A stretch of 64,000 nucleotides of DNA from Haloarcula sp. H-GB4 (lineage in GTDB: Archaea; Halobacteriota; Halobacteria; Halobacteriales; Haloarculaceae), in assembly GCF_030848575.1 (NCBI RefSeq), contig NZ_JAVDDX010000001.1, forward strand, positions 1,116,001 to 1,180,000. The letters are read 5' to 3'. Below are positions 2,823-10,916 of this stretch, piece by piece. The position numbers were made by a program, and so were the translations under genes. Position 1 is the stretch's first letter, and each line of letters begins with the position of its first letter. The notes beneath the pieces are model-generated. The model searched no databases. It saw only the letters and a list, made by a program, of their open reading frames with translations, and was not told the DNA's origin.

Positions 2823-4517
2823 ATGCCGCGACGGAACAGCGGGCTGTTCCCGACGGACCTGAAAACAATCGCCCGCGATATCGGGTCCCTCCTGCTGATG
2901 GAGGCCGGGCTGATGACGATTACGGCCGTGATTGCGCTGGGCTTTCGGGAGTTCTACGCCGCGTTCGGGTTCTTTACTGCGGCTGGGATAACAGCCGCTG
3001 TCGGCGGCATCGCAAACCGCGGGTTCACCGATGCCCCGGCCCCAGAGATGAAACACGGCATGGTCATCGCCGCCGGCGGGTGGCTGCTGGTTGCTACGTT
3101 CGGCTCGTTGCCGTTCCTGTTGACCGCGTGGTTCACGCCCCCTGCGGTCATGGATACGTTCGTTCCGGTCGGGACGGACACGAGTACGTGGGAGCCGATC
3201 AAAGTCGGCGGAACGACGACGCTCTCCAGCCTGGCGTACTTCCGGAACCCGCTCCATGCCTTCTTCGAGAGCATGAGCGGGTGGACCGGGAGCGGCCTGA
3301 CGATGGCGATTCACGAGCCCTCGCTCCCGCGCGCAGTCCAGTGGTGGCGGTCGTTCATCCAGTACGTCGGCGGCGTCGGCGTCATTGTCCTGACCGTGTC
3401 TATCCTGTCACGGCCTGGCAGCGGCAGTTACGCGCTCTACCAGAGTGAGGCCCGCGAGGAGAAGATCCACCCGAGCGTCGTCTCCACCGTCCGAACGGTC
3501 TGGAAACTCGTCGCCGGCTACACGGTTCTCTCGTTCGCGCTGCTGTTCGGTGCTATCCTCGCCAGCGACAGCGAGTACGCGGAGTCGCTGCCGCTGTGGG
3601 AGGCCGCTTGGCAGGCGCTCAATCACGCCATGACTGGGCTCACGACCGGTGGGTTCTCGGTCACGGACAACTCGATTGCGACGTATAACTCGCCGCTCGT
3701 CGAGACCGTGCTGTTGCCGATTATGATTCTCGGTGCGATTGCGTTCCCGGTCCATTATGTTGTCCTGCACGACAGGCAGATTCGCGAACTAGTATCGGAC
3801 CTGCAGACCCGCTGGCTGTTCATTCTGCTCGCGCTCGGCGTCTTCGGCCTCTCAGTACAAAATGCGTGGTCCGTTCCCGCGACGACTGAGGCGTTTGCCA
3901 CCCAGTCGTTCCTGCCCTTTTCGGTACCGATGCTTGACGCCGCACAGATCGATGCGGTCCGGGACTCGACGTTCCAGTGGGTCAGCGCACTCAGCTGTAC
4001 TGGCTTCCAGTCGGCACCGATCGGTCGCTGGCTCGCCGGCGGCAAGGTGCTTGTGGCCGGCGCGATGGTACTTGGCGGCGCCGCGGGGTCCACTGTCGGG
4101 GGCATCAAAATCATCCGGGGGTACACCATCGTTCGCGGCATCATCTGGCAGTTCTCGCGGGTGTTCCTCCCGACAAACGCGGTGATTACGGCCCGCATCG
4201 GCGACCGGACGCTGGACCGTGAATCGATGGAGCGGGAGTTCAGCGAAGCGGCCATCGTGACACTGCTGTGGCTCATCATTCTCGTCACCAGCAGCGTCGT
4301 CCTCACCAACGTCGCGGGACCGGGGTTCGGCTACGCCGATGCCCTGTTTGAAGTCGCCAGCGCGCAAGGGAACGTCGGCCTTTCCTCGGGCATCACCGGG
4401 CCGTCGATGTCCCCACTCGCGGAGGGGATGTTCGTGTTGAACATGTGGGTCGGCCGGCTGGAGATTATCCCGATACTCGTGTTCATCCGCGCCGGACTGT
4501 ACGGGCTAGACCCGTAA
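2823..4517 (+). CDS. trkH: TrkH-family potassium transporter (first copy)
   Basis: This is a 564-residue polytopic membrane protein of the Trk/Ktr superfamily with four pore-loop repeats. The filter glycines are visible in FESMSGWTGSGLTM, GLTTGGFSVTDNS, LSCTGFQSAP and GNVGLSSGITG. Other family marks are GGAAGSTVGGIKIIR after the third repeat and MWVGRLEIIPI near the C-terminus. It starts one base after the trkA stop, so it should be co-translated with its regulator. It is longer than the second copy at 4974-6512, with an extended loop between the first helices (about residues 95-135). Role: K+ uptake driven by membrane potential. Confidence 0.95.
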   Translation: MPRRNSGLFPTDLKTIARDIGSLLLMEAGLMTITAVIALGFREFYAAFGFFTAAGITAAVGGIANRGFTDAPAPEMKHGMVIAAGGWLLVATFGSLPFLLTAWFTPPAVMDTFVPVGTDTSTWEPIKVGGTTTLSSLAYFRNPLHAFFESMSGWTGSGLTMAIHEPSLPRAVQWWRSFIQYVGGVGVIVLTVSILSRPGSGSYALYQSEAREEKIHPSVVSTVRTVWKLVAGYTVLSFALLFGAILASDSEYAESLPLWEAAWQALNHAMTGLTTGGFSVTDNSIATYNSPLVETVLLPIMILGAIAFPVHYVVLHDRQIRELVSDLQTRWLFILLALGVFGLSVQNAWSVPATTEAFATQSFLPFSVPMLDAAQIDAVRDSTFQWVSALSCTGFQSAPIGRWLAGGKVLVAGAMVLGGAAGSTVGGIKIIRGYTIVRGIIWQFSRVFLPTNAVITARIGDRTLDRESMEREFSEAAIVTLLWLIILVTSSVVLTNVAGPGFGYADALFEVASAQGNVGLSSGITGPSMSPLAEGMFVLNMWVGRLEIIPILVFIRAGLYGLDP

Positions 4518-4545
4518 GCCGTCAAACGTCCCTTTAGTCCACCTC

Positions 4546-4850
4546 TCACTCTTCGTCAGGGTACACTTCGCCAAGAAACATCCAGCGGACTTTCGTGCCA
4601 CCTTCGGGTCTAGTCTCCTCTTTGACGTGGTAGAGATACGGTCCGTGTGGGCAGTCATCTCATTCTTCAGCACAGTAGTCCACTTCACTACCTCGGTGTA
4701 GCCGTCGCGTTTGGTCGCGCGAAGGATTTCCTCATTGGGGTCCGGCTCCACCGATGAGGCTGTCTCATCGTGGAATTGCAACAGCTCCTGCGCATGGATG
4801 ACCGTATTGTGGAGTTCATCAGGCGTCAACTGTGGCAGTTCCGCTGTCAC
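4546..4850 (-). pseudogene. Frameshifted small protein with CPHGPY-type motif
   Basis: The N-terminal frame (start 4850, MTAELPQLTPDELHN) reads sensibly to about ...VVKWTTVLKN near 4662. It then turns into a Lys/Arg/Thr-rich tail that runs past the gene space into the 3' end of trkH (stop 4506). In another frame, from about 4656 downward, there is a clean continuation DDCPHGPYLYHV followed by KVRWMFLGEV, ending at a stop at 4546-4548. The (C)xHGPY...Y...G motif is a familiar ending of small haloarchaeal proteins of unknown function. Inserting one base near 4655-4665 joins the two halves into one protein of about 100 residues that no longer overlaps trkH. This is either a real frameshift mutation or a sequencing error. 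Confidence 0.7.
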
Positions 4851-4973
4851 TTTATCCGGGACCCCCTCAGTTAGTGTCGGTTCGTTTTAGGACTGGACAT
4901 ACTGACATCTCCATGTGGGAGATACATAACTGAACTGGCAGCTACAGATAGCGACGGAACGAGTCTCCCGGAC

Positions 4974-6512
4974 TCACTCGTTCCAGAACGCTCCGGTAAA
5001 TATCACGAACACTGGAATGATCTCTAATCGGCCGATCCACATCAAGAAGATCATCAGCAGTTTGCTGGTCTCCGGGAAGAGTTCATAGGTCCCGAACGGC
5101 CCCAGAAACCCGAACCCGGGACCGATGTTCCCGATGGTCGCCAAGCTTGCGCTGATGGCTTCGAAGACAGTCAGCTCAAGCCCGACACGGCCGGCATCGA
5201 GGAGGAGAAACACCGTCGCGATACCGAACGTGAGCAGGTACAGCAGCGTGAACCCGTATATCGCGTTGATAACGTCCTCGTCAATGACCTGCCCGCCGAG
5301 CCGAACTGGTTTGACGGCGCTGGGATGGGCTGTCGTGAACAGTTGGCGTCGGATGCTCTTGAGCACGACGAGCCATCGGACGATTTTGACGCCGCCACCG
5401 GTTGACCCCGCGGAGCCGCCGATGAACATCGCGAACAACAGGACTCCCTGTGCGGTGTTGCCCCACTGGGCGAAGTCGCTCGTCGCGTACCCGGTCGAGT
5501 TCAGCAACGAGGCGACCTGAAACGTGGCTTGCCGGAGCGAGTTCTCCAGTGCCCCCTGTGTAATGCCTCCGAGTTCAAGCGGCGGCGCGGACCCGGTAAA
5601 GAGCAGACCCCAGAGGATGACGGCCACGCCGGCGTTTGCACCGAGGTACGCCTGCAGTTCACGGTCCTGGAGGAAGGCGGCGTACTCGTCCTGCAACAGG
5701 AGGTAAAACAGCGCGAAGTTCATCCCGGCGATGAGCATGAACGGAATGACGGCCCACTGGACGGCCGGTGAGAAGTAGGCGATGCTCTCAGCCTGTGGGG
5801 AGAAGCCGCCGGTCGGCAGGGTCGTGAACGCGTGGGCAACGGCGTTGTAGGCGTCCATATTCGGTGCATAGCCTGTGTAATGGAGGCCAAGCAGAATGAG
5901 GATATACAGCACGGTAAAGCCCAGATAGAACAGCCAGAGGAGTCGGGCAGTCTCGGCTATCTTCGGCGTCAGTTTCTGCAGTTCGGGGCCTGGTGCCTCC
6001 GATTCGATCAACTGTGCCCCGTTGACGGCTGCCTCTGGAAGAATGGCGACCATCAGAACAATAATACCCATCCCGCCGAGCCACTGGGTGAGCTGTCGCC
6101 ACATCAGCAGCGCGTGGGAGTGGCGAGCAAACGATATTTCATTGGTGACGGTCGCGCCAGTGGTCGTAAACCCGGACATCGACTCGAACAGTGCGTTCAC
6201 AGGCTCACCGAGCGCTGATTCGGTCCCGTACCCGGCGATAACGTAAGGGACTGCACCGATAACTGCGACAGCCCCCCACGAGAGCCCGACGAACAGCAGC
6301 GCTTCGCGTGGCCCGAGTTCGTGACTGTCGCTGACCTGCTCCAGCGCTACGCCCAGCGTGATGGCGATTGCGATAGAGATCAGGAAGACAACAGTATCTT
6401 CTCCGTACAGCAACCCGATCCCAAGCGGGACCAGCATTGCGACGGCGAGATACTTGCTTACAGTGCCGGTCAGAGCGACACTCTGTCGCCAGTCGACGCG
6501 AACCGACATCAC
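4974..6512 (-). CDS. trkH: TrkH-family potassium transporter (second copy)
   Basis: This 512-residue polytopic transporter belongs to the same superfamily as 2823-4517 but diverges in sequence. Filter motifs are FESMSGFTTTGATV, TLPTGGFSPQAES, LLNSTGYATSD and LATIGNIGPGFGFLG, and there is the same GGSAGSTGGGVKIVRW and MWIGRLEIIPVFV ends. The start has two adjacent ATGs (6512 and 6509); the first is taken. It faces the first trkH tail to tail with the broken gene between them, and has no adjacent trkA. It may use the trkA at 2138 or a distant RCK protein. Keeping two TrkH types is common in salt-in haloarchaea; different affinities are inferred, not shown. Confidence 0.94.
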   Translation of the reverse strand: MMSVRVDWRQSVALTGTVSKYLAVAMLVPLGIGLLYGEDTVVFLISIAIAITLGVALEQVSDSHELGPREALLFVGLSWGAVAVIGAVPYVIAGYGTESALGEPVNALFESMSGFTTTGATVTNEISFARHSHALLMWRQLTQWLGGMGIIVLMVAILPEAAVNGAQLIESEAPGPELQKLTPKIAETARLLWLFYLGFTVLYILILLGLHYTGYAPNMDAYNAVAHAFTTLPTGGFSPQAESIAYFSPAVQWAVIPFMLIAGMNFALFYLLLQDEYAAFLQDRELQAYLGANAGVAVILWGLLFTGSAPPLELGGITQGALENSLRQATFQVASLLNSTGYATSDFAQWGNTAQGVLLFAMFIGGSAGSTGGGVKIVRWLVVLKSIRRQLFTTAHPSAVKPVRLGGQVIDEDVINAIYGFTLLYLLTFGIATVFLLLDAGRVGLELTVFEAISASLATIGNIGPGFGFLGPFGTYELFPETSKLLMIFLMWIGRLEIIPVFVIFTGAFWNE

Positions 6513-6719: not shown

Positions 6720-7142
6720 TCAGGCGTGACCCTGTTCCTTCGCCCCCTCGCGGATTTTCTTCGACCGCTTGCGGACGCGTGAGACGTACCGTTCGATTTT
6801 CTCTGGTTTCTCACCGTAGAACGACGCGGCCCAGTGGACATCGACGCCGTCCTGTGTGAGGAAGTAGGCGACAAGCGTATCGCGGCCCGCTTGGATGACC
6901 GTCGGCGGGACACCGCGCTCGCCGGTCCCAGCTTCTTGGAAGCCGTTCACGTCGAAGTACACATCAGCGTATAGTGTCGCCATCTCGGGGTCATCGAACT
7001 CGATGCCCTCGTGGTCTGGGGCCTCGAATCGGTAGCGTGTGTCGCCCTCGTCTGTCGGTCGTTCGGTGATGCGTATGTCGAGGATGTACTCACGATAGGT
7101 CGAACAGTCCATCGGTACAGCAGTGGTGTCTGATTGTGGCAT
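6720..7142 (-). CDS. Hypothetical cytosolic protein (140 aa)
   Basis: This is a soluble 140-residue protein without signal peptide or membrane helix. It has a mixed alpha/beta pattern, one internal acidic stretch (EGIEFDDPEMATLYADVYFDV), and a basic helical C-terminus (YVSRVRKRSKKIREGAKEQ) that could bind nucleic acid. I do not recognise a named domain. An alternative start at 7112 (MDCSTYREYILD) is possible. It lies 17 bases after the stop of the cohesin-like anchor gene on the same strand, so it is probably the third gene of that operon. Its link to the surface proteins is unexplained. Confidence 0.65.
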   Translation of the reverse strand: MPQSDTTAVPMDCSTYREYILDIRITERPTDEGDTRYRFEAPDHEGIEFDDPEMATLYADVYFDVNGFQEAGTGERGVPPTVIQAGRDTLVAYFLTQDGVDVHWAASFYGEKPEKIERYVSRVRKRSKKIREGAKEQGHA

Positions 7143-7159: not shown

Positions 7160-7912
7160 TTATGATTGTCGGCTCGTTCTGGCTGCGAATGCTGCCACCG
7201 CGGCGAGTGCGGCAATGGCCAGCGCTATCGGGAGTGACCCGTTCGCGCCGGTCGTCGACTGGTCGTCACCATCCGCGGCCTCGTCATCTGAGGTATCTGC
7301 GGCGGCCTCGGTGCCCGCTGACTCGGCGACGGACTCGCTGGCAGGTGAAGATGCTTCGGTCGCGGCGGCTACTGTCTCCGTCGTCGCACTCGCCGAAACC
7401 GCGACCGCTGTCGACTCGGTCGCAGGCTCGACCACTCCGCCGCCGTCCGCGTCGACCTGGCTCGACGCGACGGTCACCTCTGTCTCGCCGCCATCGACGC
7501 CGGCAAGCTGGACCGTCGCGAGCGTCACATCGCTCGCTCCAGGTTCGATCTGTCCGTCAAGGTCGGCCGCCTCGAGCGTGACTGTCCCGCCGTCTGAACT
7601 AATGACAGGGTCAGTCGTGAGGCCGAGGCGGTCGGGGTAGCTCGCGTTCTCGAATCGGGCGACAGCGGGGTCATCGACGACGAGTTCGAGTTGGTAGCCG
7701 GCCAGTCCGTCCGGTGCGCTGGTGAGGATGACCGGCACAGCCATCGTTTCACCAGCAGCGACGGAGCTGGTCTCGATGTTGATTGCTGGCGTGCTCTGCC
7801 CTGCAGCGAGCGCGGGGACTGTCCCCGCGAGGAGGATGAGTGCGACGAGCGCGAGGGGGAGGCGAGCGCTTCGGACGTAGCCGCGTATCGAAAGGTGAGT
7901 GTCGTCTGTCAT
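7160..7912 (-). CDS. Secreted, C-terminally anchored protein with cohesin-like domain
   Basis: The 250-residue protein has four parts. An N-terminal signal sequence has a hydrophobic core (PLALVALILLAGTVPALA, about residues 19-37). A beta-rich domain at about 41-165 has cohesin-type features: an opening INIETSSVAAGETMAVPVIL strand, a GYQLELVVDDPAVARFE strand, and a later hydrophobic strand LATVQLAG. A Ser/Ala/Glu/Thr-rich low-complexity linker covers about 170-222. One C-terminal membrane helix is followed by Arg residues (about 224-247). It should display the domain on the outer face of the cell membrane. There is no PGF-type sorting motif. It lies 43 bases downstream of a protein bearing a dockerin-like module, suggesting receptor and ligand. 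The cohesin call is by pattern only. Confidence 0.75.
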   Translation of the reverse strand: MTDDTHLSIRGYVRSARLPLALVALILLAGTVPALAAGQSTPAINIETSSVAAGETMAVPVILTSAPDGLAGYQLELVVDDPAVARFENASYPDRLGLTTDPVISSDGGTVTLEAADLDGQIEPGASDVTLATVQLAGVDGGETEVTVASSQVDADGGGVVEPATESTAVAVSASATTETVAAATEASSPASESVAESAGTEAAADTSDDEAADGDDQSTTGANGSLPIALAIAALAAVAAFAARTSRQS

Positions 7913-7955
7913 TGTGTTCCTGTATGGAAAGATGAGAGGTACTCGGTCGGGGTCG

Positions 7956-10634
7956 TCAGTTGACTTCTTCGTAGAGTGCCGTCACGTCCGCGAAGTCGAG
8001 TTTACCGTTCTCGTTGAAGTCATACGCGCCGGTGTTCAGCTGGACGCTGTCGGAGTCCATGTTCGAGAACAACACCTGTACGTCCTCGTAGTCGAGACGG
8101 CCGTTGCCGTTGAGGTCCTCGAAATGACCGTCGCCGTCGGGATCGGTCGGCGCGGTGTCACCGACGACCGTCTGCGGGCCACCCACAACGATACCGTTTC
8201 GGGCTTCTGCCTCGATGGCGTTCCCGTTCTCGTCGTCCATTTGTTCGATGGAGACAGTCAGGTCGGTCGTGCCGCCGCCGTTAGCGCGGACATCGAGCGT
8301 TGCGAGTGACGCGTCCATCGCGCCGGACTGGACGTTCGTATTGACATCGGCAACACGGATTGTCGCCGACGAGCCGTCGTCGCTGATCGAACTCTCGGTG
8401 AGACCGAGCGCGTCGGGGAAGGAGACACCGGTGATAGACGCGATCTCGGGGTTGGAGACGCTGACGGTGAGTCGAGCGCCGGAGAAGCCAGCAGGGAGCG
8501 ATGAGGCGGTCAGCGAGACGCTGCCCGTCGATCCACTTCCGACCGCGGCGGAATTGGCGCTGACTGTGACGGTGGGCTGGTAGACATAGAGACCGTCGTT
8601 CGGGTACGAGCGCGCAGGGCCACCGAAGCCGTCCTCACAGCAGAGAACGCGACCATCGCGCATCGTATAGACGTTGTCGACGTTCCGGAGCGCGTCGTTT
8701 GCGTCTTCCGGCGAATCGGTGAAGTCGGGGCCGGTGATGACTGGTTCGAGCCTCGAAACGTTGTAGTCCGCTTCCAGCACACCGCGGTAGACGACGCCGC
8801 CGTCGACGCGGTCGAGTTGGATATCGCCTTCGTCGTCTGCGAGTGCGTCGTTGAACTCCGAGATGCCGAAGTAGATGAAGTCGCCGGGCTGGGAGTCATC
8901 CACGGTGTCGACGCCCTCGGCCTTGTTGAACTCGATGGACGCACCGATTTCCTTGGCGGCTGCGCGGGTCTCAAGGAACGGGACGCGACGGAGTTCCTCG
9001 TCGACGCCGTCCGGGCCGTTTGCTTCGTACTGTTCGGCCCACTCGACGATTTCCTCGTTCGTGATGTAACTCTGATTGCCGCTTGCGCTCTGGAGGACTG
9101 TAAGGTCGGCTTCCCTGACTGCGTCCGACACCGAGACATCCGTTCCGATTTCGTCCACACTGTATTCGGTGTGCTCCGTGATGTAGTCGGCCTGCGTGAC
9201 GTCGTCGTACTCCGCGATCCACTCAGCAGCCTCGCCGTTCGTGGCGTGACCGAGCTTCATCCATTCGATCTCAAGTGGTGTCTGTGCCGGGGAGTTCCGC
9301 CCGTCGGATTCGGCGGCGTTGGCCGCGTCGTTGGTAATCTGTGGCGCGTACAGCGTGCCTGCGATGTCGTCGGTGTTGTCGTACTCCGGAATTGGCTCGT
9401 CGGCGACGAACTTGTAGATACCCTTGCTATCGCCGTCCGAACAGCCGTAGACCGTCTTCTGGTCGCCCTGAATATCAGGTGCTTCCCAGGCGGCCCGACC
9501 CATGACATAGTACTTCATCGGACTCGGCGTTTCGGCAGCCGGTTCCCGGATGTCGACGAAGTACCCGTAGCGGTACGGGTTCGGGTAGACGTCATCGATG
9601 AGCGTCATATCGTTCCCGTCCTCGGTCTGGTCGACCGTGTCCGCACCGAGGTAGTACGCCGCCTTCTCGACACCGGCCTGGGACCAGTAGCCCTGAATGG
9701 TGAACTCCTCCGCAATGTCACCGGCCTCAACGTAGTCACCCAGTGCCTCCCCGATTTCCGACGGGTTCGGACGGTTCCAGAACTGACAGCCACCGATTTT
9801 GCCGACACCGGTTCCAGACTCCACGATGTCGCCCACTGTGTACGTATATGAGACGCGCGGGTGGCTGTAGTTCTCCTCGGCCGAGATCATCGTTTCCCAC
9901 GGGCTGAGGTCACCATAGCAGTTGACCCACGTCCCGCCAAGATTGCGGAACGCCTCGGTATTGACGACGTTGAGCGTCATGTCCGAACCGACGTCGGCAC
10001 TCCACTCGCCGCTCTCGTCCCGGCTTATCGGGACCCGCGAGATGCACCCCGGGTAGTTCTCCCAGTTTGTGAATAGATACCCTTCAGTGCCCTCGTCGTC
10101 TGTTGCGACGAACTGGTTGCAGTCTGGATTTTGCCCATAGCCACCACTGCTTCCATTGAGCGCAGTAAGGTCGACACCGTCAGGTGTCTGTGGGACACCG
10201 AGGCGTTCCTCGCCGCCCTGAATCTCTTCGCGGCCCTGAATAAGGACCTCGTAGTTACCAGCTTCGGACCGGACCTGACGCTGTTTCTCCTCGGTGTCCG
10301 GAATCCCCACCTCGGAGAAATCGTCGTTACTCCCGTCGAACTCGAACTGGAAGCCGCTGAAATAGCCCACCGCGGCCCGTCCGAACGGTTCGGGGTTTTC
10401 TCCCTCCGGGTGCTGGAGGCTGTACAGCAGTGACCCGTCCTCAAAGACGAACGGTCCCGTCACCTCCGCGCCGAACGCCGTCGTCGAGAACCGTTTGAGA
10501 CTACCGGCAACACTCGGTGCCCCGGGTGTGTCTGTCTCTTCGACCTCTTCCCCACTTGCCACGCCGATGACGCTGGCCCCAAGTGCAGCAGCCACCGACT
10601 GTGAAAGTACCTGCCGTCGAGTGAAATCGACCAT
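7956..10634 (-). CDS. Tat-exported PhoX-like (DUF839) phosphatase with cohesin-like and dockerin-like modules
   Basis: The protein has 892 residues. Residues 4-30 are a Tat signal (FTRRQVLSQSVAAALG). Residues from about 40 to 686 resemble PhoX/DUF839 beta-propeller alkaline phosphatases, with NWENYPGCISRVPISR, GTWVNCYGDLSPWETMISAEE and VLCCEDGFGG segments; this family is Ca/Fe-dependent and exported by Tat. Residues about 687-820 form a beta-rich cohesin-like domain similar to the one in the next gene. Residues about 831-892 carry two EF-hand-like calcium loops (DLNGNGRLDYED and DFNENGKLDFAD), the duplicated signature of type I dockerins. A TATA-like element at 10655-10664 suits leaderless expression. 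Phosphate scavenging at the surface is inferred; no active-site residue was verified. Confidence 0.82.
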   Translation of the reverse strand: MVDFTRRQVLSQSVAAALGASVIGVASGEEVEETDTPGAPSVAGSLKRFSTTAFGAEVTGPFVFEDGSLLYSLQHPEGENPEPFGRAAVGYFSGFQFEFDGSNDDFSEVGIPDTEEKQRQVRSEAGNYEVLIQGREEIQGGEERLGVPQTPDGVDLTALNGSSGGYGQNPDCNQFVATDDEGTEGYLFTNWENYPGCISRVPISRDESGEWSADVGSDMTLNVVNTEAFRNLGGTWVNCYGDLSPWETMISAEENYSHPRVSYTYTVGDIVESGTGVGKIGGCQFWNRPNPSEIGEALGDYVEAGDIAEEFTIQGYWSQAGVEKAAYYLGADTVDQTEDGNDMTLIDDVYPNPYRYGYFVDIREPAAETPSPMKYYVMGRAAWEAPDIQGDQKTVYGCSDGDSKGIYKFVADEPIPEYDNTDDIAGTLYAPQITNDAANAAESDGRNSPAQTPLEIEWMKLGHATNGEAAEWIAEYDDVTQADYITEHTEYSVDEIGTDVSVSDAVREADLTVLQSASGNQSYITNEEIVEWAEQYEANGPDGVDEELRRVPFLETRAAAKEIGASIEFNKAEGVDTVDDSQPGDFIYFGISEFNDALADDEGDIQLDRVDGGVVYRGVLEADYNVSRLEPVITGPDFTDSPEDANDALRNVDNVYTMRDGRVLCCEDGFGGPARSYPNDGLYVYQPTVTVSANSAAVGSGSTGSVSLTASSLPAGFSGARLTVSVSNPEIASITGVSFPDALGLTESSISDDGSSATIRVADVNTNVQSGAMDASLATLDVRANGGGTTDLTVSIEQMDDENGNAIEAEARNGIVVGGPQTVVGDTAPTDPDGDGHFEDLNGNGRLDYEDVQVLFSNMDSDSVQLNTGAYDFNENGKLDFADVTALYEEVN

Positions 10635-10664: not shown

Positions 10665-10916
10665 CAAGTTTATAATATTTGTATGATGTATTCAGAGCGC
10701 TCTTATGAGATCAGTTCTCACCGTACTCCTAACCTATAGGACATATCACAAATACTGCTATTTTTACAGAATACGTGCTGACTGACTCCGATAACATCCT
10801 CTGATGAATCGATCGGTCATCACCTACTTACCAGTGGGCGAGTCGGATAGTCAACACAGTGCGAACCCGCCCTATGTCACATCACAAGTCGAACGAGCAG
10901 TCACCGTGACGCGGTG

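Follow-up and report, generated by a model that had tools for sequence, protein, structure and literature searches.

Does a haloarchaeon hold a secreted phosphatase on its surface by means of a cohesin-dockerin pair? The question is raised by a locus of Haloarcula sp. H-GB4 (the window, that is, the whole stretch of 64,000 nucleotides that was analysed, covers positions 1,116,001 to 1,180,000 of contig NZ_JAVDDX010000001.1). On its minus strand, a gene for a PhoX-type phosphatase ending in a cohesin domain and a dockerin (together, Coh-Doc) is followed by a gene for a cohesin protein predicted to be membrane held, here called the anchor, and then by a gene for a protein of 140 amino acids (aa). 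We put the probability that calcium-dependent docking of the dockerin into the anchor tethers PhoX at the membrane at roughly 0.7, and many haloarchaea appear to use such modules to keep a secreted, phosphate-scavenging enzyme at the cell surface. The original prediction, made from the sequence alone, had correctly given the positions of the two genes and their spacing: 43 intergenic bases (7913-7955) separate PhoX from the anchor, which lies downstream on the same strand. The parts of the two proteins are as follows.

7956-10634, minus strand: PhoX-cohesin-dockerin protein, 892 aa (PF05787, 65.2 bits; orthologues found)
10545-10634, minus strand: Tat-type signal sequence of PhoX, residues 1-30, with TRRQVL, assigned by sequence
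8577-10532, minus strand: PhoX catalytic core, residues ~35-686, assigned by Pfam and fold
8169-8576, minus strand: cohesin domain of PhoX, residues 687-822, predicted fold
7959-8150, minus strand: dockerin of PhoX, residues 829-892, calcium loops 840-851 and 872-883
7160-7912, minus strand: cohesin anchor protein, 250 aa, predicted to be secreted, with a C-terminal membrane segment
7799-7912, minus strand: N-terminal signal peptide of the anchor, residues 1 to ~38, a hydrophobic stretch
7388-7789, minus strand: cohesin domain of the anchor, residues 42-175, modelled via the close homologue L006
7184-7234, minus strand: C-terminal hydrophobic segment of the anchor, residues 227-243, with a short Arg-containing tail

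The pairing was followed through 292 Halobacteria genomes, 291 of them with a completeness of 90% or more and a contamination of 5% or less. Profile searches scored up to 10 Coh-Doc and up to 9 anchor candidates per genome, and the counts given here are among the matches listed; because the genomes are related, they are not counts of independent events. At an E value of 0.001 or better, the Coh-Doc profile matched in 130 genomes and the anchor profile in 124, totals to which more distant systems, and cross-matching of the two cohesins, also contribute. Stricter sets were defined by thresholds chosen after viewing the lists (Coh-Doc down to 136 bits, anchor at least 130 bits), and three truncated or duplicate open frames (L136, L144, and L181) were excluded before the count by cargo. 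This left 86 strong Coh-Doc genes, comprising 67 PhoX, 8 PhoD, and 11 others. An anchor gene lies downstream on the same strand of 63 of the 86, at a match-to-match distance of -14 to 302 bases, and the proposed anchor partner in the same operon is thus no accident of one genome; chance or a one-genome oddity was rejected, since the pairing is conserved. A C-terminal hydrophobic segment is present in 61 of these 63 anchors, and none of the 86 cargo proteins has a hydrophobic C terminus of its own.

The anchor follows one form of PhoX. PhoX occurs in 106 genomes, in 64 of them in the Coh-Doc form, and 58 of the 67 PhoX-Coh-Doc genes have a downstream anchor. By genome, anchors were found in 58 of 64 with PhoX-Coh-Doc, in 0 of 41 with PhoX lacking Coh-Doc (one of them, G172, keeps only a decayed remnant of the operon), and in 0 of 186 without PhoX. 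A 59th anchor genome, G269, has a contig break, with PhoX at the edge of one contig and the anchor at the start of the next. Among individually named loci, an anchor adjoins 11 of 12 complete PhoX-Coh-Doc loci (all but L012) and 0 of 12 PhoX loci without Coh-Doc; L016, which starts at a contig edge inside the operon, was left out of both groups. Two genomes, G196 and G180, have tandem PhoX-Coh-Doc genes with one common anchor. Judged by this co-occurrence, the data show the anchor gene to depend on the Coh-Doc extension rather than on PhoX as such. In PhoX forms that lack Coh-Doc, the C terminus is a low-complexity tail or, in L021 and L022, a hydrophobic one, consistent with Coh-Doc being one among several means of retaining the enzyme.

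The identity of the cargo is clear. The protein scores 65.2 bits against PF05787 (cut-off, 24), so that the cargo is a phosphatase rather than a cellulase, and it carries a twin-arginine translocation (Tat) signal; a twin-Arg pattern lies near the N terminus of 65 of the 67 PhoX-Coh-Doc proteins. An AlphaFold model of the full protein, built from 25 sequences, reached a mean predicted local distance difference test (pLDDT) value of 71.3 and a predicted template modeling (pTM) score of 0.72. In that model, the core resembles Pseudomonas fluorescens PhoX (3zwu; Z 15.2, root mean square deviation [RMSD] 4.2, 405 aligned residues at 18% identity). Other families of beta-propeller proteins reach similar Z scores, and the Pfam match is for that reason the firmer evidence. 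Cys239 and Glu384 align with PhoX Cys179 and Glu273, which we take to be metal-binding residues, and are invariant in the 25 sequences. A literature search for PhoX metal ligands did not find a residue list, including in the accessible part of PMC11098088. By Pfam score and predicted fold, the window protein is a member of the PhoX alkaline phosphatase family.

Pfam alone made the cohesin and dockerin names of the original prediction no more than leads, because the scores fall below the cut-offs. Against Cohesin (PF00963; cut-off, 24.1), the anchor scores 16.6 bits and its isolated domain 19.1 (E 0.0016), 11 of 58 anchors reach an E value of 0.01 or lower, and the cohesin of PhoX is absent from the whole-protein match list. 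This cut-off is a limit set for scoring and not a property of the biology. It is the predicted folds, together with the calcium loops, that bear the names out. Residues 687-822 of PhoX match cohesin 6kge_A best (Z 16.9, RMSD 1.8, 127 aligned), with a Foldseek E value of 1e-9. The model of the L006 anchor returned cohesin entries in 49 of the best 50 rows shown, counting 2o4e, 3kcp, and 4fl4, whose titles are silent and which we take to be cohesin structures; the best match was 2vo8 (Z 15.8, RMSD 2.2, 129 residues), and the archaeal cohesin 2xdh of Archaeoglobus gave a Z of 15.4 (RMSD 2.0, 124 aligned). Both window cohesins, then, have the cohesin fold in their predicted structures, and in the anchor it is the sole domain. 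At 34% identity (E 2e-16), the two are paralogues. Sequence searches of solved structures returned nothing for the anchor alone and one chance match (E 0.81) for its profile, and in an annotated Salarchaeum plasmid record the gene after PhoX, which is the anchor, is labelled hypothetical protein.

The two calcium loops that had been called typical of dockerins hold up as well. Both have Asp or Asn at positions 1, 3, 5, 9, and 12, columns that are invariant or at least 90% conserved across 71 aligned dockerins, and loop-helix pairs are predicted for the dockerin region in a read-through model of L006. The domain is a type I dockerin in having two calcium loops with Asp or Asn ligands, each followed by a helix. 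Against Dockerin_1 (PF00404; cut-off, 22.9), the whole protein scores 17.7 bits and the isolated 64-residue stretch 22.6; 69 of the 71 relatives match this family at E 0.01 or better, and 67 also match EF-hand pairs. The dockerin profile matches solved dockerins (CelS, E 7e-4), yet some other EF-hand proteins match better. The call rests on the loops, the profile matches, and the predicted loop-helix pairs. Sequence and predicted fold together demonstrate the domains and the operon.

From these parts, the following sequence of events can be proposed. PhoX would be exported folded through Tat, and the anchor would leave the cell by means of a separate signal peptide and stay attached to the membrane through its C-terminal segment. 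Outside the cell, the dockerin at the C terminus of PhoX would bind calcium and plug into the anchor cohesin, keeping the phosphatase at the surface by a noncovalent plug and socket, so that phosphate would be released close to the cell. Docking, calcium loading, and surface location are inferred from the families concerned. In some genomes, PhoD and further secreted phosphatases or nucleotidases whose dockerins are related would probably use the socket too, and the cohesin inside PhoX may recruit further dockerin-bearing phosphatases.

Other potential users of the socket were seen in the window genome, where the Pfam dockerin model finds three dockerin genes, all on phosphatase-type enzymes. 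Besides PhoX, there is a PhoD (L037, 4325-6550), which lacks a nearby anchor and whose Coh-Doc shares 52% identity with the PhoX one, and a calcineurin-like phosphoesterase (L038, 5038-8201) with CBM96/DNRLRE and a dockerin, the stop of which overlaps the start of the gene for another cohesin protein, one that has a C-terminal hydrophobic segment. Eight genomes have PhoD-Coh-Doc, in no case next to an anchor, and 7 of the 8 hold a PhoX-type anchor elsewhere (Fisher p 7e-5, relatedness ignored), which makes a socket shared by PhoX and PhoD plausible. Genome G239 has PhoX, PhoD, 5'-nucleotidase-like, and choice-of-anchor proteins with such modules and one strong anchor; its PhoD dockerin is 84% identical to the PhoX dockerin of the same genome, the closest of 67. 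A tentative extension, one we lean against while taking it seriously, is a haloarchaeal ecto-phosphatase complex in which a membrane cohesin socket is shared by PhoX, PhoD, and sometimes 5'-nucleotidase or other cargo, and which grows through the cohesins of the cargo. If true, several phosphate-releasing enzymes would be gathered in one place, making the complex the phosphate equivalent of a cellulosome.

Several observations weigh against these proposals. The original prediction had the dockerin binding the anchor, and a fold of dockerin, leader, and anchor cohesin of L006 read through as a single chain (21 sequences, with the leader peptide between the domains) gave no confident dockerin-cohesin interface; its mean pLDDT was 77.6, and its pTM of 0.53 is about the value expected of the cohesin alone. 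PhoX-Coh-Doc stands without an adjacent anchor in G194, G215, G237, G254, G276, and Halogranum (L012), and in G117 the anchor is split over two frames. In G194, G215, G237, and G276, though not in G254, the 140-aa gene directly follows PhoX, the order to be expected if an intervening anchor gene had been lost or had never been acquired. As for sharing, the PhoX dockerin of the same genome ranks 1, 3, 5, 5, 6, 15, and 35 of 67 relative to the PhoD dockerin in seven genomes, and with such mixed ranks within-genome similarity is no proof of sharing.

The original prediction had also raised self-assembly into chains. It is unlikely, in our judgment, that the main partner of the PhoX dockerin is a PhoX cohesin, whether from another molecule or from the same one, with chains or dimers as the result that the anchor caps or seeds. 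One dockerin of Archaeoglobus fulgidus binds both cohesins, and the cohesin precedes the dockerin in all 67 PhoX dockerins found; these 67 are a biased test, however, because the search profile required both modules for high scores. Dockerin-only cargo exists, moreover, in the phosphoesterase of the window genome and in glycoside hydrolase family 5 (GH5) proteins of another genome (L199), which shows that cargo can do without a cohesin. Less likely again is that the cohesin and dockerin are passive spacers, or bind glycans or the S-layer instead of each other. Two papers, in the parts accessible, ascribe haloarchaeal enzyme dockerins to substrate binding (PMC13260240 and PMC10963439), and the read-through fold did not dock; against this, the anchor co-occurs with Coh-Doc and not with PhoX as such, and the solved neighbors of the anchor domain are cohesins. 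That the anchor serves as receptor for dockerin proteins other than PhoX, with which it would simply be cotranscribed, is very improbable, since 58 of 59 anchor genomes have PhoX-Coh-Doc and the 59th is an assembly split, even though related dockerins with no anchor gene adjoining are found on PhoD and 5'-nucleotidase-like proteins. Docking of PhoX into the anchor remains the preferred reading.

Such pairs are not confined to PhoX. Fourteen lower-scoring Coh-Doc matches, chosen by hand, were fetched, and the distant haloarchaeal Coh-Doc genes, with PKD domains or nuclease-like or 5'-nucleotidase cargo, often have a cohesin-type gene directly downstream. More distant anchors (~77 to 120 bits) exist with other cargo, and in the same phylum outside the class at least 10 genomes have, as judged by eye, a Coh-Doc match with a cohesin match close behind on the same strand. 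The arrangement is thus a general archaeal one, of which the PhoX form is one strongly conserved branch. The original prediction had considered the fusion with its anchor unusual; that finds no support, with the anchor accompanying PhoX-Coh-Doc in 58 of 292 genomes and similar pairs with other cargo inside and outside the class. As a separate observation, G264 has a cellulosome-like cluster (L199, 5605-14093), in which a 1,032-aa protein with five cohesin matches and a dockerin lies beside two GH5 cellulase-type dockerin proteins and a cohesin protein.

Two further features belong to the PhoX neighborhood.

6720-7142, minus strand: small protein of no known family, 140 aa, which accompanies PhoX
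10669-10676, minus strand: TATA-like box ATTATAAA upstream of PhoX, assigned by consensus only

The 140-aa gene (at least 100 bits) is present in 103 of 106 PhoX genomes and in 0 of 186 without PhoX, and of the 109 PhoX genes on a contig that also bears it, 106 are at most 3 kb away, in varying order. The protein had no Pfam match, family searches gave only chance matches (best E 0.04), and no signal peptide was seen by eye. Our guess is a PhoX-specific export or cofactor chaperone. In G269 (L209, 178-4306), an anchor, a 140-aa gene, a second PhoX without Coh-Doc, and a second 140-aa gene lie in a row. The sequence ATTATAAA is present in 10 of 13 stretches upstream of Coh-Doc PhoX and in 6 of 12 upstream of other PhoX (260 bases each), and comparison of these stretches revealed nothing beyond this box. 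The window PhoX is 96% identical to that of H. vallismortis. Beside the operon, at 2823-6512 of the window, are two long opposite-strand open frames, named by eye as TrkH potassium transporter-like.

How does this system compare with those already known? Choice-of-anchor families (NCBIfam) combine one core with varied C-terminal anchoring devices. The window PhoX matches no such model, and one such protein (L155) carries a PhoX-type Coh-Doc; nothing on choice-of-anchor proteins together with dockerins was found in the literature searched. P. fluorescens PhoX (3zwu) is a phosphatase of the same fold, and its aligned solved chain is without cohesin or dockerin. The bacterial cellulosome with an anchoring scaffoldin is alike in having a dockerin on a secreted enzyme and a cohesin on a surface-held protein; it differs in that the PhoX operon has no multicohesin scaffoldin, carbohydrate-binding module, or glycoside hydrolase. 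With one cohesin in the anchor, a phosphatase as cargo, and no carbohydrate enzyme, cellulosome membership was rejected: the arrangement would work like a cellulosome anchor and is not a cellulosome. Proteins with dockerins and cohesins in anaerobic methanotrophic archaea (ANME) are likewise archaeal, extracellular, and unlinked to cellulose, and differ in that their dockerins often sit on the substrate-binding proteins of transporters and that several cohesins occur in some of the proteins (PMC9012536).

In the literature searched, which covered few subscription journals, PhoX, cohesin, and dockerin came together in one unrelated paper, haloarchaeal cohesins and dockerins in a general review, and PhoX and Haloarcula in papers on other subjects; we do not claim that the pair is missing from print. 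The role of these modules outside cellulose degradation is described as an open question in PMC5244752. In that context, a pair that is simple and conserved in many genomes, and whose enzyme and membrane socket are both clear, permits a direct test and points to attachment modules that would work in strong salt. Genetic tools exist for the genus Haloarcula. In A. fulgidus, a cohesin-plus-dockerin gene lies next to a cohesin gene, and in the haloarchaeal operon, too, a Coh-Doc gene is directly followed by a cohesin gene. Strong binding between the A. fulgidus modules AfuCoh76 and AfuDoc75 is described in PMC9705933. This noncellulosomal pair is the closest precedent, alike in being archaeal and in its cohesin fold (2xdh), and the haloarchaeal system differs from it in its PhoX cargo, in the C-terminal membrane segment of the partner, and in its recurrence across the class. 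The PhoX-anchor module is real, conserved, and testable, and it extends a known archaeal kind rather than founding a new one.

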